Positions 28,919 to 60,663 of a stretch of 64,000 nt of DNA are shown in pieces. The stretch's first letter is position 1; each line of letters starts with the position of its first letter. This DNA comes from Pseudolabrys sp. Its GTDB lineage: Bacteria > Pseudomonadota > Alphaproteobacteria > Rhizobiales > Xanthobacteraceae. Where the stretch lies: contig JAFIGS010000013.1 of assembly GCA_017849615.1 (NCBI GenBank), positions 62,001 through 126,000 on the forward strand. Direction: 5' to 3'. The translations under genes were made by a program, and so were the position numbers. The notes beneath the pieces are model-generated. The model was not told the origin of the DNA, ran no database searches, and worked only from the letters and a program-made list of their open reading frames with translations.

Positions 28919-30457
<1,539 letters not shown>

Positions 30458-30492: not shown

Positions 30493-30740
30493 AACGCGAC
30501 TCAGGCTGTGCCGATTTGGCGCAGTATTGGGAGGCGGCCTTAAGGGTTTCTTAAATGGATCGGGCAGGCCGACGCGCCCTCCCGACAGGGTGAAAAAGAC
30601 GGAAAAATTGGCGCGACCGCCATCGCGCCGCCATTGCCGGGCGCTTAATTGTAGGCGTGCTTTAGGTAAAGTGAGCTGAAGAGCCGATTCCACCCACTTT
30701 TTTGTCCCTAACGAAACGTATCCGAGAAACGCACCCAGCC

Positions 30741-32636
30741 ATGGCCAAATCCGCGACCCGCAAGAAGCCCGTTGCCCGCAAAGCCGCCAAGACGCCCGCC
30801 CGGAAGGTGGCCGCCAGGAAGGCGAGCAAGGCCAGGCCGAAGGCCGCTGGCGCCGTACAGCTCGGCGCGCTGCCGGACTGGAATCTCAACGATCTCTATC
30901 CGGGCATCGAGAGCACGGCGCTCAAGCAGGACCTGTCGTGGATGGACAGCGAGTGCGTGGCGTTCGAGGAGCTCTACAAGGGCAAGCTCGGCGTGCTGGC
31001 GGCGCAGGCGGGGGCCAGCGAAGCCTTGTGCGAAGCGGTCAGGCGCTACGAGAAGATCGCCGACGTGCTTGGCCGCATCGGCTCCTATGCCGGACTGCTG
31101 CATGCCGGCAATTCGACCGACCAGTCGATCGCCAAGTTCTACGGCGACATGAACGAGCGCATCACCACCGCGTACTCGCATCTCTTGTTCTTCGATCTCG
31201 AACTCAACCGCATCGACGACAAGCTGCTCGATGCCGCGATGGCGGACGGCCCGCTCAGCCACTACCGGCCGTGGATCGAGGATGTACGCAAGGAAAAGCC
31301 GTATCAGCTCGAGGATCGCGTCGAGCAACTGTTCCATGAGAAGTCGCTGACCGCCTATTCGGCGTGGAACAGATTGTTCGACGACACGATCGCGGCGCTG
31401 CGCTTCAAGGTGCGCGGCAAGGAACTGCCGATCGAGCCGACGCTCAACTTCATGCAGGACACCGACGGCGCCAAGCGCAAGGATGCCGCCGAGGCGCTGG
31501 CCGCGACCTTCAAGGCAAATCTCCGGCCGTTCACCCTGATCACCAATACGCTCGCCAAGGACAAGGAAATCTCCGACCGCTGGCGCGGCTTCAAGGACGT
31601 CGCCGATGCGCGGCATTTGTCGAACCGGGTCGAGCCGGAGGTGGTCGAGGCCTTGGTGTCGGCCGTGCGCGCCGCCTATCCGAAGCTGTCGCACCGCTAT
31701 TACGCGTTGAAGGCCAAGTGGTTCGGCAAGAAGAAGCTGGCGCATTGGGACCGCAACGCGCCGCTCCCGAAGGTCGAGCAGCGCAGCATTCCGTGGACCG
31801 ACGCGCGCGATACGGTGCTGACCGCTTATGGCGCATTTTCACCCAAAATGGCGGAAGTTGCCGACCGCTTCTTTGACCAGCACTGGATCGATGCCGGCGT
31901 CCGCCCCGGCAAGCAACCCGGCGCCTTCTCGCATCCGACCGTGCCGTCGGCGCATCCTTATGTGCTGATCAATTACCAGGGCAAGCCGCGCGATGTGATG
32001 ACGCTGGCGCATGAGCTAGGCCACGGCGTGCATCAGGTGCTGGCGGCACCGAACGGCGCGCTGATGGCCCCGACGCCGCTGACGCTGGCCGAAACCGCCA
32101 GCGTGTTCGGCGAAATGCTGACCTTCAGAAAGCTGCTCGCGGGCACCACGGACAAGAAGCAGCGCAAGGCCATGCTTGCCGCCAAGGTCGAGGACATGAT
32201 CAACACCGTGGTGCGGCAGATCGCGTTCTACACATTCGAGCGCAAGGTTCATCTCGAACGCCGCAACGGCGAACTCACCGCCGACAAGCTGTGCGAACTC
32301 TGGATGTCGGTGCAGTCGGAAAGCCTCGGGCCGGCGATCGATTTGAGGCCCGGCTACGAGACCTTCTGGGTCTACATCCCGCACTTCATCCACTCGCCGT
32401 TCTATGTCTACGCCTATGCCTTCGGCGACTGCCTGGTGAACTCGCTCTACGCGGTCTACGAGAAGTCGGAGAGCGGCTTTGCCGAGCGCTATCTCGCCAT
32501 GCTGTCGGCCGGCGGCACCAAGCATCACTCCGAGCTGCTCGCGCCGTTCGGGCTCGACGCCCGCGATCCGAAGTTCTGGGACGGCGGCCTGTCGGTGATT
32601 GCCGGCCTGATCGAAGAGCTGGAGGGGCTGGGGTAG
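30741..32636 (+). CDS. pepF: M3 family oligoendopeptidase F with lysine/alanine-rich N-terminal tail
   Basis: From ATG 30741 the protein has 631 residues. The zinc motif LAHELGHGVHQ places the metal histidines at 424 and 428 with Glu425 as catalyst; the third ligand glutamate lies in TLAETASVFGEML. The family core begins about residue 45 (LPDWNLNDLYPGIES). Ahead of it is an unusual tail made of Lys, Ala, Arg and Pro (KSATRKKPVARKAAKTPARK and onward), resembling histone-H1-like tails. Oligoendopeptidase F degrades short peptides in the cytoplasm. It is divergent from the sigma-54 regulator; the ~280-base region between them holds both promoters. Confidence 0.92.
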   Translation: MAKSATRKKPVARKAAKTPARKVAARKASKARPKAAGAVQLGALPDWNLNDLYPGIESTALKQDLSWMDSECVAFEELYKGKLGVLAAQAGASEALCEAVRRYEKIADVLGRIGSYAGLLHAGNSTDQSIAKFYGDMNERITTAYSHLLFFDLELNRIDDKLLDAAMADGPLSHYRPWIEDVRKEKPYQLEDRVEQLFHEKSLTAYSAWNRLFDDTIAALRFKVRGKELPIEPTLNFMQDTDGAKRKDAAEALAATFKANLRPFTLITNTLAKDKEISDRWRGFKDVADARHLSNRVEPEVVEALVSAVRAAYPKLSHRYYALKAKWFGKKKLAHWDRNAPLPKVEQRSIPWTDARDTVLTAYGAFSPKMAEVADRFFDQHWIDAGVRPGKQPGAFSHPTVPSAHPYVLINYQGKPRDVMTLAHELGHGVHQVLAAPNGALMAPTPLTLAETASVFGEMLTFRKLLAGTTDKKQRKAMLAAKVEDMINTVVRQIAFYTFERKVHLERRNGELTADKLCELWMSVQSESLGPAIDLRPGYETFWVYIPHFIHSPFYVYAYAFGDCLVNSLYAVYEKSESGFAERYLAMLSAGGTKHHSELLAPFGLDARDPKFWDGGLSVIAGLIEELEGLG

Positions 32637-59375: not shown

Positions 59376-59900
59376 CTACGCGCTTTCGCGGCCGAACGCG
59401 GCCTTTAGCAAACCGAGCTGATGCTCGACCGGATTGATCGACGGCGCCTGCTCGGCCGGCACGGTGTGAATGTTCTGATCGAGCCGGCGGACCTGAACGC
59501 GCAGTTTCTGCGCGCGGTCGATGAGGTCGCGAAGCTGCTGCGGCAGAATCTCGACATTGTTCGGATCGTGATTGTCGAGCGCGGACAGCTTGACCTTGGT
59601 TTTTTCCTTGTTGGCCTGGGCGAGCGACATCTCGCCTTCCTTCACGGCGCGGTGCAGCAGCAGCCAGGAGGCGATCTGCATCAGCCGCGTGGTCAGCCGC
59701 ATGCTTTCGGTGGCGTAGGCCAAGGCCGCGGCGCGGCCGAGCTGCTTGGATTCGGCGCGGCCCGGACCGTCGAGATAGGTCGCGGTTTCCTCGACCAGCG
59801 CCATGCCGCCGCGAAACAGATCGGAGAAGGCCTGAGAATTCGCCAACCGCTCGCCAAAGGCCACCGGTTCATGCGGGTTAACCATGCTGTACTCGGACAT
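59376..59900 (-). CDS. rcdA: RcdA-family regulator of CtrA degradation (DUF1465)
   Basis: The 174-residue, mostly helical protein matches DUF1465: SQAFSDLFRGGMALVEETAT, YLDGPGRAESKQLGRAAALA, YATESMRLTTRLMQIASWLL and HDPNNVEILPQQLRDLIDRA. In Caulobacter, RcdA is an adaptor that delivers CtrA and other substrates to ClpXP with CpdR and PopA. A CtrA-type box and a candidate small RNA lie 260-400 bases upstream on the same strand. Confidence 0.93.
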   Translation of the reverse strand: MSEYSMVNPHEPVAFGERLANSQAFSDLFRGGMALVEETATYLDGPGRAESKQLGRAAALAYATESMRLTTRLMQIASWLLLHRAVKEGEMSLAQANKEKTKVKLSALDNHDPNNVEILPQQLRDLIDRAQKLRVQVRRLDQNIHTVPAEQAPSINPVEHQLGLLKAAFGRESA

Positions 59901-60162
59901 ACGCTACGCCTCACCAAAACTCTAACCGCGCCGCTTGTGATTATTATTGCGGCTCGTGCCGTTACCGGACCTGTGTCGAAAACGTCAACGCGGCCGGGCG
60001 TCGTTTACGATTGAGTAAGGATGCGCGCGGCCGGCCGTTCTGTCCATATCCTCGGCCGGCAAACCTTGCGACATAGTTGCCGCGATCGCGGAAACCACAG
60101 CCCAGATCGGACCTTTGCGTCAAAACGGCACATTGGCCGCGAACAAATATAAAACAGCCGAC

Positions 60163-60191
60163 AAAAAAGGAGCCGCCGTTGCCGGCGGCTC
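60163..60191 (-). terminator. Intrinsic terminator of the candidate small RNA
   Basis: GAGCCGCCG (60191-60183) and CGGCGGCTC (60178-60170) pair perfectly around a GCAA loop on the minus strand, followed by C and six T's (60168-60163). It lies about 175 bases past the DUF1192 stop, too far to be merely that gene's terminator unless transcripts read through. Confidence 0.93.
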
Positions 60192-60258
60192 AAGTTCGAT
60201 AACAGGGAGGCGTCAAACAGAGTGGACAGGAGCCACTCAAGGTCCATGAAGATGGACA
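60163..60258 (-). ncRNA. Candidate trans-acting small RNA (about 96 nt) with anti-Shine-Dalgarno loops
   Basis: On the minus strand, in order: hairpin 1 GTCCAT-CTTC-ATGGAC (60257-60242); hairpin 2 GAGTGG-CTCCTGT-CCACTC (60238-60220), whose loop exposes CTCCT; an unpaired stretch containing GCCTCCCTG (about 60210-60202); and a terminator hairpin of nine pairs with GCAA loop ending in CTTTTTT (60191-60163). No sensible protein frame accounts for it. Anti-Shine-Dalgarno C/U stretches in a loop and between stems, plus a rho-independent end, are the design of rhizobial trans-sRNAs such as EcpR1 and the CuCKoo/alpha-r families. The start is inferred from a CtrA-type box 25 bases upstream. Homology to EcpR1 is a suggestion, not a demonstrated match. 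Confidence 0.68.
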
Positions 60259-60281
60259 GTTATTAGTAATAGCCGAGAAAG

Positions 60282-60297
60282 CTTAATGCCGTCTTAA
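60282..60297 (-). promoter_or_regulatory. CtrA-type binding box (TTAA-N7-TTAA)
   Basis: TTAAGACGGCATTAAG on the minus strand has both half sites with exactly seven bases between them, and TTAA-TGCCGTC-TTAAG reads the same way on the plus strand. The established CtrA consensus in alphaproteobacteria is TTAA-N7-TTAAC. Its centre lies about 32 bases before the inferred small-RNA start, the usual activating position, and about 390 bases upstream of rcdA. Confidence 0.6.
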
Positions 60298-60364: not shown

Positions 60365-60559
60365 TCAGCGTTTAAAGAACTGATCGGCGGCGGCGCGCTT
60401 GGCGTGCTTCTGGGCCCTGTCGGCTTCGAGCCGTTTTATTTCTTCCTGCAGCAGGCCGATCCGCGCCGCAATCTCATCGACCGACAGCAGGCTGAGATCC
60501 TGCCCGATCTCATGGGCGATTTTCTTTTTCGGCCGGTCGTCTTCGTCGAAAACTGCCAT
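60365..60559 (-). CDS. DUF1192 small protein
   Basis: ATG 60559 (MAVFDEDDRPKKKIAHEIGQ) yields 64 residues; a longer frame from 60610 adds a poor N-terminus. DLSLLSVDEIAARIGLLQEE followed by IKRLEADRAQKHAKRAAADQ is the DUF1192 pattern, a single amphipathic helix. Function is unknown. The ~460 bases between it and rcdA (59901-60364) contain the candidate small RNA and the CtrA-type box. Confidence 0.88.
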   Translation of the reverse strand: MAVFDEDDRPKKKIAHEIGQDLSLLSVDEIAARIGLLQEEIKRLEADRAQKHAKRAAADQFFKR

Positions 60560-60663
60560 GTCGTCGTCCTCCCGCGGCGCGAAACTACCTCCCGAGGGGC
60601 GGGTTGTCACATCCCGGCGCGCTGCCTACACAGGGGCCGGTCCCGTTATGAAAGGCCTTTGCC

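Follow-up and report, generated by a model that had tools for sequence, protein, structure and literature searches.

What is encoded in the short gap between a DUF1192 gene and the cell-cycle gene rcdA in Pseudolabrys, and could its product act on the CtrA circuit? Proteolysis of CtrA by RcdA, CpdR and ClpXP is central to the cell cycle of Alphaproteobacteria. A sequence-only reading of a 64,000-nucleotide stretch of this genome (the window) had proposed that a CtrA box in this gap drives a small RNA resembling the EcpR1-type RNAs of rhizobia, and that it might form a feedback loop with the adaptor that destroys CtrA. Every part on which this proposal was built lies where it had been placed, in the DUF1192-rcdA gap on the minus strand: the box, a pair of hairpins, a pair of C/U-rich stretches and the terminator. 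In window coordinates, the locus is laid out as follows:

60365 to 60610, minus strand: DUF1192 gene, upstream of the sRNA (PF06698, 78.5 bits)
60283 to 60297, minus strand: CtrA-type box TTAA-GACGGCA-TTAA, a perfect match to TTAA-N7-TTAA
60266 to 60271, minus strand: -10-like TATTAC, in columns conserved in the window's family and in the named loci
60163 to 60259, minus strand: BjrC1505-family sRNA of about 97 nt with predicted ends (RF02356 match, fold, covariation)
60242 to 60257, minus strand: hairpin 1 (GUCCAU/AUGGAC), two-sided changes in 6 of 6 pairs, 84-86% of cells paired
60220 to 60238, minus strand: hairpin 2 (GAGUGG/CCACUC) with loop CUCCUGU, two-sided changes in 3 of 6 pairs, 89.4% of cells paired
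Inside hairpin 2, minus strand: C/U-rich stretch CUCCUGUCC, of anti-Shine-Dalgarno type
60210 to 60203, minus strand: second C/U-rich stretch CCUCCCUG, of anti-Shine-Dalgarno type
60201 to 60217, minus strand: core UUUGACGCCUCCCUGUU with the anti-Shine-Dalgarno CCUCCC, the proposed mRNA-pairing seed
60163 to 60191, minus strand: intrinsic terminator of 9 pairs, 8 of them G-C (stem 60191-60170, T run to 60163)
59906 to 59912, minus strand: GAGGCGT around the Shine-Dalgarno of rcdA, a candidate site for pairing with ACGCCUC of the core (60213-60207)
59376 to 59900, minus strand: rcdA (DUF1465), regulator of CtrA degradation (PF07323, 190 bits)

We infer a 5′ start of the sRNA near 60259 from the conserved TATTAC and from the position at which hairpin 1 begins. 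Perfect TTAA-N7-TTAA matches number 2 in the 64 kb, against 0.01 expected. The other one (TTAAGGGTTTCTTAA, 30540-30554) lies between a response regulator that appears from its sequence to be of the sigma-54 type (28919-30457, minus strand) and a long divergent frame with an oligopeptidase-like look (30702-32636, plus strand).

The RNA itself is not new. The sequence-only reading had suggested a comparison with Rfam but had missed the family: RF02356, the Bradyrhizobium japonicum sRNA BjrC1505, covers 60306-60163 over model positions 1-140 with 110.2 bits (E 4e-22, cut-off 50), and no other Rfam family exceeds its own cut-off within the window. The window RNA therefore belongs to this catalogued family as a full-length member; it has the same hairpins, core and terminator as BjrC1505 and does not differ from it in kind. 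The founding study of BjrC1505, by Madhugiri and colleagues in 2012, reportedly found it expressed in B. japonicum and Rhodopseudomonas palustris. In the literature that we searched, the only mention of BjrC1505 was a table entry in a paper on Herbaspirillum; no paper was found that places it in the CtrA circuit or discusses its control by CtrA, and a search with the letters of the core returned no paper on bacterial sRNAs by title. BjrC1505 is a catalogued family whose function is unstudied.

Folding of 60259-60163 gives -39.8 kcal/mol (z -5.7), which none of 200 shuffled sequences equalled. Covariation was assessed on the three-hairpin structure in 64 sequences from an unguided MAFFT alignment. 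The three hairpins are paired in 89.9% of 1318 cells, and the compensatory changes that the sequence-only reading had anticipated in relatives are present, two-sided changes being seen in 14 of the 21 pairs; the terminator is paired in 93.7% of cells with such changes in 5 of its 9 pairs. The covariation score is 0.244, compared with 0.125 after shuffling (0/500 as high) and 0.026-0.090 when the structure is slid. The loop of hairpin 2 is variable in other families. That this is a real sRNA we regard as virtually certain.

The first ~45 positions of RF02356 (60306-60260 in the window) overlap the CtrA box and the -10 region, and when 122 distinct sequences were mapped without gaps their model pairs formed in 52% of 1708 cells (29-44% when slid). 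Because so few of these cells pair compared with those of the three hairpins, the 5′ third of the model is probably promoter sequence and not RNA, and the boundary of the family may need revision. The 3′ half of the locus (60238-60156) bears a weak Rfam likeness to SorY (21.7 bits) and to suhB/MmgR (21.5 bits), far below the cut-offs, possibly through a shared 3′ module of anti-Shine-Dalgarno stretch, ACUU and terminator.

The conserved core could in principle code for a small protein rather than act as RNA, and in the window the ATG of hairpin 1 does open a frame (60005-60247) that takes in the core. This candidate was rejected, and we give it next to no credence: among exact-core loci, to which the test was confined, 44 of the 113 distinct sequences lack a start codon in that frame, and the lengths of the frames vary.

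The family is widespread around the window's genome. RF02356 matches 37 of 40 relatives (the window's genome counted in), 132 of 149 genomes of the window's family and 45 of 387 class genomes, 19 of these above the cut-off. A model of our own, R1, which was made with 64 sequences from which the box was excluded and which gives rough E-values, matches 265 of the 297 genomes sampled from the order (Hyphomicrobiales) and 87 of the 387 sampled from the class; 49 of these 87 score below 47 bits, among which 14 lie next to rcdA and the remaining weak matches are uncertain. The exact central 12-mer GACGCCTCCCTG is present in 86 of 89 Rfam-found loci and in just 47 of 80 named rcdA loci, the latter being the best 80 of 505 relatives and hence biased towards the window. 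A further 27 named loci match R1 at E <1e-3, which brings the count to 74/80; L069, L072, L080, L083, L093 and L102 have neither the exact core nor an R1 match. The named-locus core search and the box-bits and small-protein analyses were limited to exact-core loci, so that the invariance of the core there is partly a product of selection. The second anti-Shine-Dalgarno stretch is better kept than the first, and records of Methylobacterium, Shinella and Sinorhizobium show a degenerate core. In G217 and in G358 (L140, G358:C6:79514-79816) the sRNA is present more than once, in tandem or as an extra copy, and both L140 copies have a perfect CtrA box of their own.

Is this RNA made under the control of CtrA? 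The sequence-only reading had pointed to relatives that keep the hairpins as the place where loss of the box would tell against it. In the fetched relatives the box has been retained: at least 7 of the 8 half-site bases are found 64-77 nt 5′ of the core in 85 of 86 scored loci. These 86 are the exact-core loci among the 89 found with Rfam (L123, L124 and L132, without an exact core, were left out); among the named loci, too, the box was scored where the exact core is present and not in the 27 that R1 alone detected. Within the window's family the box stands 5′ of the RNA in 54 of 54 loci, and the 17 other families represented by fetched exact-core loci each have at least one locus at 7/8 or better. 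Conservation per position is 1.75-1.81 bits in the half-sites and 0.39-0.62 bits in the spacer; the half-site values are inflated, since the box was picked as the highest-scoring site within 90 bases (the per-locus shuffle p averaged 0.06). A fairer control is the gap between the terminator and rcdA, where a box of at least 7/8 occurs in 9/54 loci of the window's family, 9/45 named loci and 5/20 others. CtrA is encoded in the window's genome (425 bits). Since the box is conserved before the RNA and rare in the gap between the RNA and rcdA, control of the sRNA by CtrA is very likely on these comparisons. The hexamer GCTTTC straight after the second TTAA is also strongly kept in the window's family and in the named loci, and is not kept in other families.

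The position next to rcdA is real and deep across relatives. For 76 of the 89 sRNA loci the flanking sequence that was fetched includes the gene, and in the loci of the order Hyphomicrobiales where both were measured the RNA usually ends 90-360 nt before it. Among the 38 class genomes with an R1 match of at least 47 bits, rcdA follows the RNA on the same strand, no more than 2.5 kb away, in 22, elsewhere in 14 (in some of these merely on another contig) and without a DUF1465 match in 2. The sRNA and rcdA also tend to occur together (38/44 versus 105/342 genomes, p 1e-12, uncorrected for phylogeny and linkage).

Such an arrangement invites the view that the element is a cis-acting leader, in which a CtrA promoter makes the rcdA mRNA, the hairpin is an attenuator and the short RNA is a by-product. 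In the window rcdA indeed lies 263 nt downstream of the sRNA on the same strand, linkage to rcdA is common among relatives, and the parts available of earlier papers credit the CtrA sites there to rcdA (PMC2877005; PMC3616915). However, the RNA and rcdA lie apart in families f52, f75 and f83 (40-45 kb apart on the same contig in three f52 genomes, on different contigs or not resolved in the rest), and the f52 and f75 RNAs, distant from rcdA, retain both structure and box, which argues against a mere rcdA leader. The unlinked and rcdA-less cases among the strong class matches and the extra RNA copies in G358 and G217 also tell against it, as does the report that rcdA expression is unchanged in Sinorhizobium meliloti upon CtrA depletion (PMC4433202, in the part available). 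We consider a leader improbable.

The 17 genomes of the window's family in which no RNA was found comprise 12 without DUF1465 and 5 with a divergent copy (76-84 bits). We had considered them as a natural experiment and set this idea aside, as loss of the whole locus accounts for the 12 equally well and a match to the core persists in two of the five divergent copies. Genera g281, g286 and g315 of this family contain 12 genomes that have neither the sRNA nor DUF1465, and RcdA is reported as absent in Xanthobacter in the available text of PMC2877005. One genome, G031, has a full DUF1465 (166 bits), yet no RNA was found in it; another, G040, has a good sRNA (65 bits) and no DUF1465 match, and rcdA therefore cannot be the sole target.

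If the RNA acts in trans, on which mRNAs might it act? The sequence-only reading looked to the EcpR1 type and to dnaA, gcrA and ctrA as targets. The broad layout and the cell-cycle theme are indeed in common, EcpR1 of S. meliloti being a rhizobial cell-cycle-linked sRNA with stem-loops, and single leaders score well: that of ctrA in L341 is in the best 10% and that of gcrA in L306 in the best 8% (wide window). The likeness does not extend further. The conserved SL1 loop UCCGCCGCAUCU described in the accessible part of PMC4414408 is absent from the window RNA; both of its copies in the window's genome appear to be coding sequence, where no sRNA family turned up, and we rejected them as an EcpR1 encoded elsewhere. 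The same source places the EcpR1 gene between divK-pleD and rpmG, whereas the window RNA has DUF1192 and rcdA as neighbours, and the portions available of PMC4414408 and PMC7143759 report control by ppGpp and stress, unlike the CtrA-box RNA of the window. Nor do the leaders of gcrA and ctrA stand out in their complementarity to the core: those of the window's genome rank at the 66th and 38th percentile respectively, and as groups they are unremarkable among the readable leaders (14/17 for gcrA, 11/16 for ctrA). Neither gained support as a target. The comparison with EcpR1 is not supported and should be dropped, and we consider an RNA of that type acting on dnaA, gcrA and ctrA highly improbable.

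Two other RNAs invite comparison. CcnA of Caulobacter crescentus is an ncRNA thought to be controlled by CtrA and to work in the CtrA circuit; as described in the available text of PMC8959179 it is located at the replication origin and presents a CCCC loop to ctrA and gcrA, whereas the window RNA lies beside rcdA and the CCCC of CcnA loop A does not occur in 60259-60163. This comparison was made on described features. The Sinorhizobium sRNA GspR likewise feeds into the level of CtrA, but the accessible part of PMC5928217 reports it in Sinorhizobium only, with ctrA and cspA5 as targets.

A more direct candidate for the feedback suggested by the sequence-only reading is found in the core itself, which may pair with rcdA's own Shine-Dalgarno region. 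Its ACGCCUC is complementary to a GAGGCGT lying over the Shine-Dalgarno of rcdA, a motif present in 40 of the 53 distinct rcdA leaders of the window's family and in only 2 of 396 sampled genes of the window's genome, one of which is rcdA. We compared the core with 300 others in which the flanks were shuffled and CCUCCC was kept, thus separating the anti-Shine-Dalgarno effect. On the family's rcdA leaders the mean duplex is -16.6, against -10.9±1.6 for the shuffled cores, and 0/300 were as low; these leaders are related by descent, and the result does not amount to 49 independent cases. The named Xanthobacteraceae-like loci gave 4/300 as good. The same test gave 274/300 for the neighbouring MDR gene, 119/300 for L31, 83/300 for DUF1192 and 105/300 for 99 of the 396 background genes. 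By rank, rcdA stands 34th among the 396 sampled genes, which is not significant alone.

Outside the family the match fades (90/300 in distant Xanthobacteraceae, 17/300 in other Hyphomicrobiales, 5/300 in other families), and no GAGGCGT was seen in the rcdA leaders of other families, 22 of 35 being readable. In f52 and f75, the match of the unlinked rcdA genes is poor, with -12.7 as the best value at any candidate start, while one genome of f83 attains -17.4. We therefore discarded rcdA complementarity as a rule for the whole class. Two RNA-less loci with divergent DUF1465, L172 and L174, reach -17.6 and -18.6 at one candidate start, as good as the family, and four other RNA-less genomes match weakly (best -5.6 to -14.3). 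At that start L172 and L174 have a GGAGGCG Shine-Dalgarno that matches the sRNA core well. A scan of the window's genome for GAGGCGT followed by ATG gave 87 matches, too many to be of use.

How is this pattern to be read? A serious competitor is that the RNA is CtrA-driven, that its conserved targets are other mRNAs and that the family's rcdA match is a coincidence fixed by descent. The core is kept in many lineages while the rcdA complementarity is limited to one family, the RNA is retained where rcdA is unlinked or absent, and two RNA-less genomes show the same complementarity. On the other hand, the rcdA match beats flank-shuffled cores and neighbouring genes, and our analysis identified no other conserved target. 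We would put this reading only slightly short of an even chance. Within the window's family rcdA is the best target candidate, a lineage-restricted and testable hypothesis; that it is a real target there is possible, and the complementarity leaves us rather more doubtful than convinced. We find it probable that the RNA acts through its core on mRNAs, whichever these are, and the conjunction of a real sRNA, control by CtrA and pairing of the core with mRNAs, with no part required of rcdA, is the account towards which we lean.

On this basis a circuit can be proposed. CtrA would bind the box at about -38 to -24 and would activate the ~97-nt RNA, a trans-acting molecule made up of two hairpins, the anti-Shine-Dalgarno core and the intrinsic terminator. 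By pairing with Shine-Dalgarno regions, the core would keep mRNAs from being translated. The best candidate among these mRNAs in the window's family is that of the neighbouring rcdA, which would be repressed through ACGCCUC : GAGGCGU; less RcdA would mean slower degradation of CtrA by ClpXP. CtrA would thus induce an sRNA that represses rcdA, whose product acts against CtrA, a double-negative and self-reinforcing loop. In this circuit both the target and the sign of regulation are proposals.

Published data touch on several steps of such a loop. As far as the available text of PMC4433202 goes, CtrA in S. meliloti is bound upstream of rcdA by ChIP-seq while rcdA expression does not change when CtrA is depleted, and depletion of RcdA raised CtrA while its overproduction lowered it. 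The S. meliloti record (L353) has the annotated order DUF1192, DUF1465, L31. The gap between the first two holds a divergent homologue of the RNA (36.3 bits with R1; 27.2 bits with Rfam, below the cut-off) whose core has shrunk to CTCCCTGTT. Perfect boxes occur there at 2165-2179, before the RNA, and at 2339-2353, between the RNA and rcdA, and the ChIP peak therefore does not single out the RNA: the published binding fits the idea of an sRNA box and is no proof of it. This record is labelled pSymB, yet it is 3.7 Mb long and carries rcdA. In agrobacteria, several rcdA start sites have a CtrA motif upstream (PMC10469942, in the part available). Hyphomonas provides a counter-example, rcdA being described in the accessible part of PMC7200025 as not CtrA-regulated and CtrA as not under proteolytic control.

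In its fullest form, the hypothesis would make BjrC1505 an ancient alphaproteobacterial CtrA-box sRNA embedded in the module for CtrA proteolysis. It would then be the sRNA, and not rcdA, that owns the conserved box found upstream of rcdA in this lineage, and CtrA would make an RNA that silences the adaptor of its own destruction, a double-negative loop that could give a bistable CtrA switch. Taken whole, this is a tentative picture that we think unlikely to hold in every part. CtrA sites so far credited to rcdA may nevertheless belong to the RNA and, if true, the hypothesis would help explain how CtrA can bind upstream of rcdA in S. meliloti without a change in rcdA expression.
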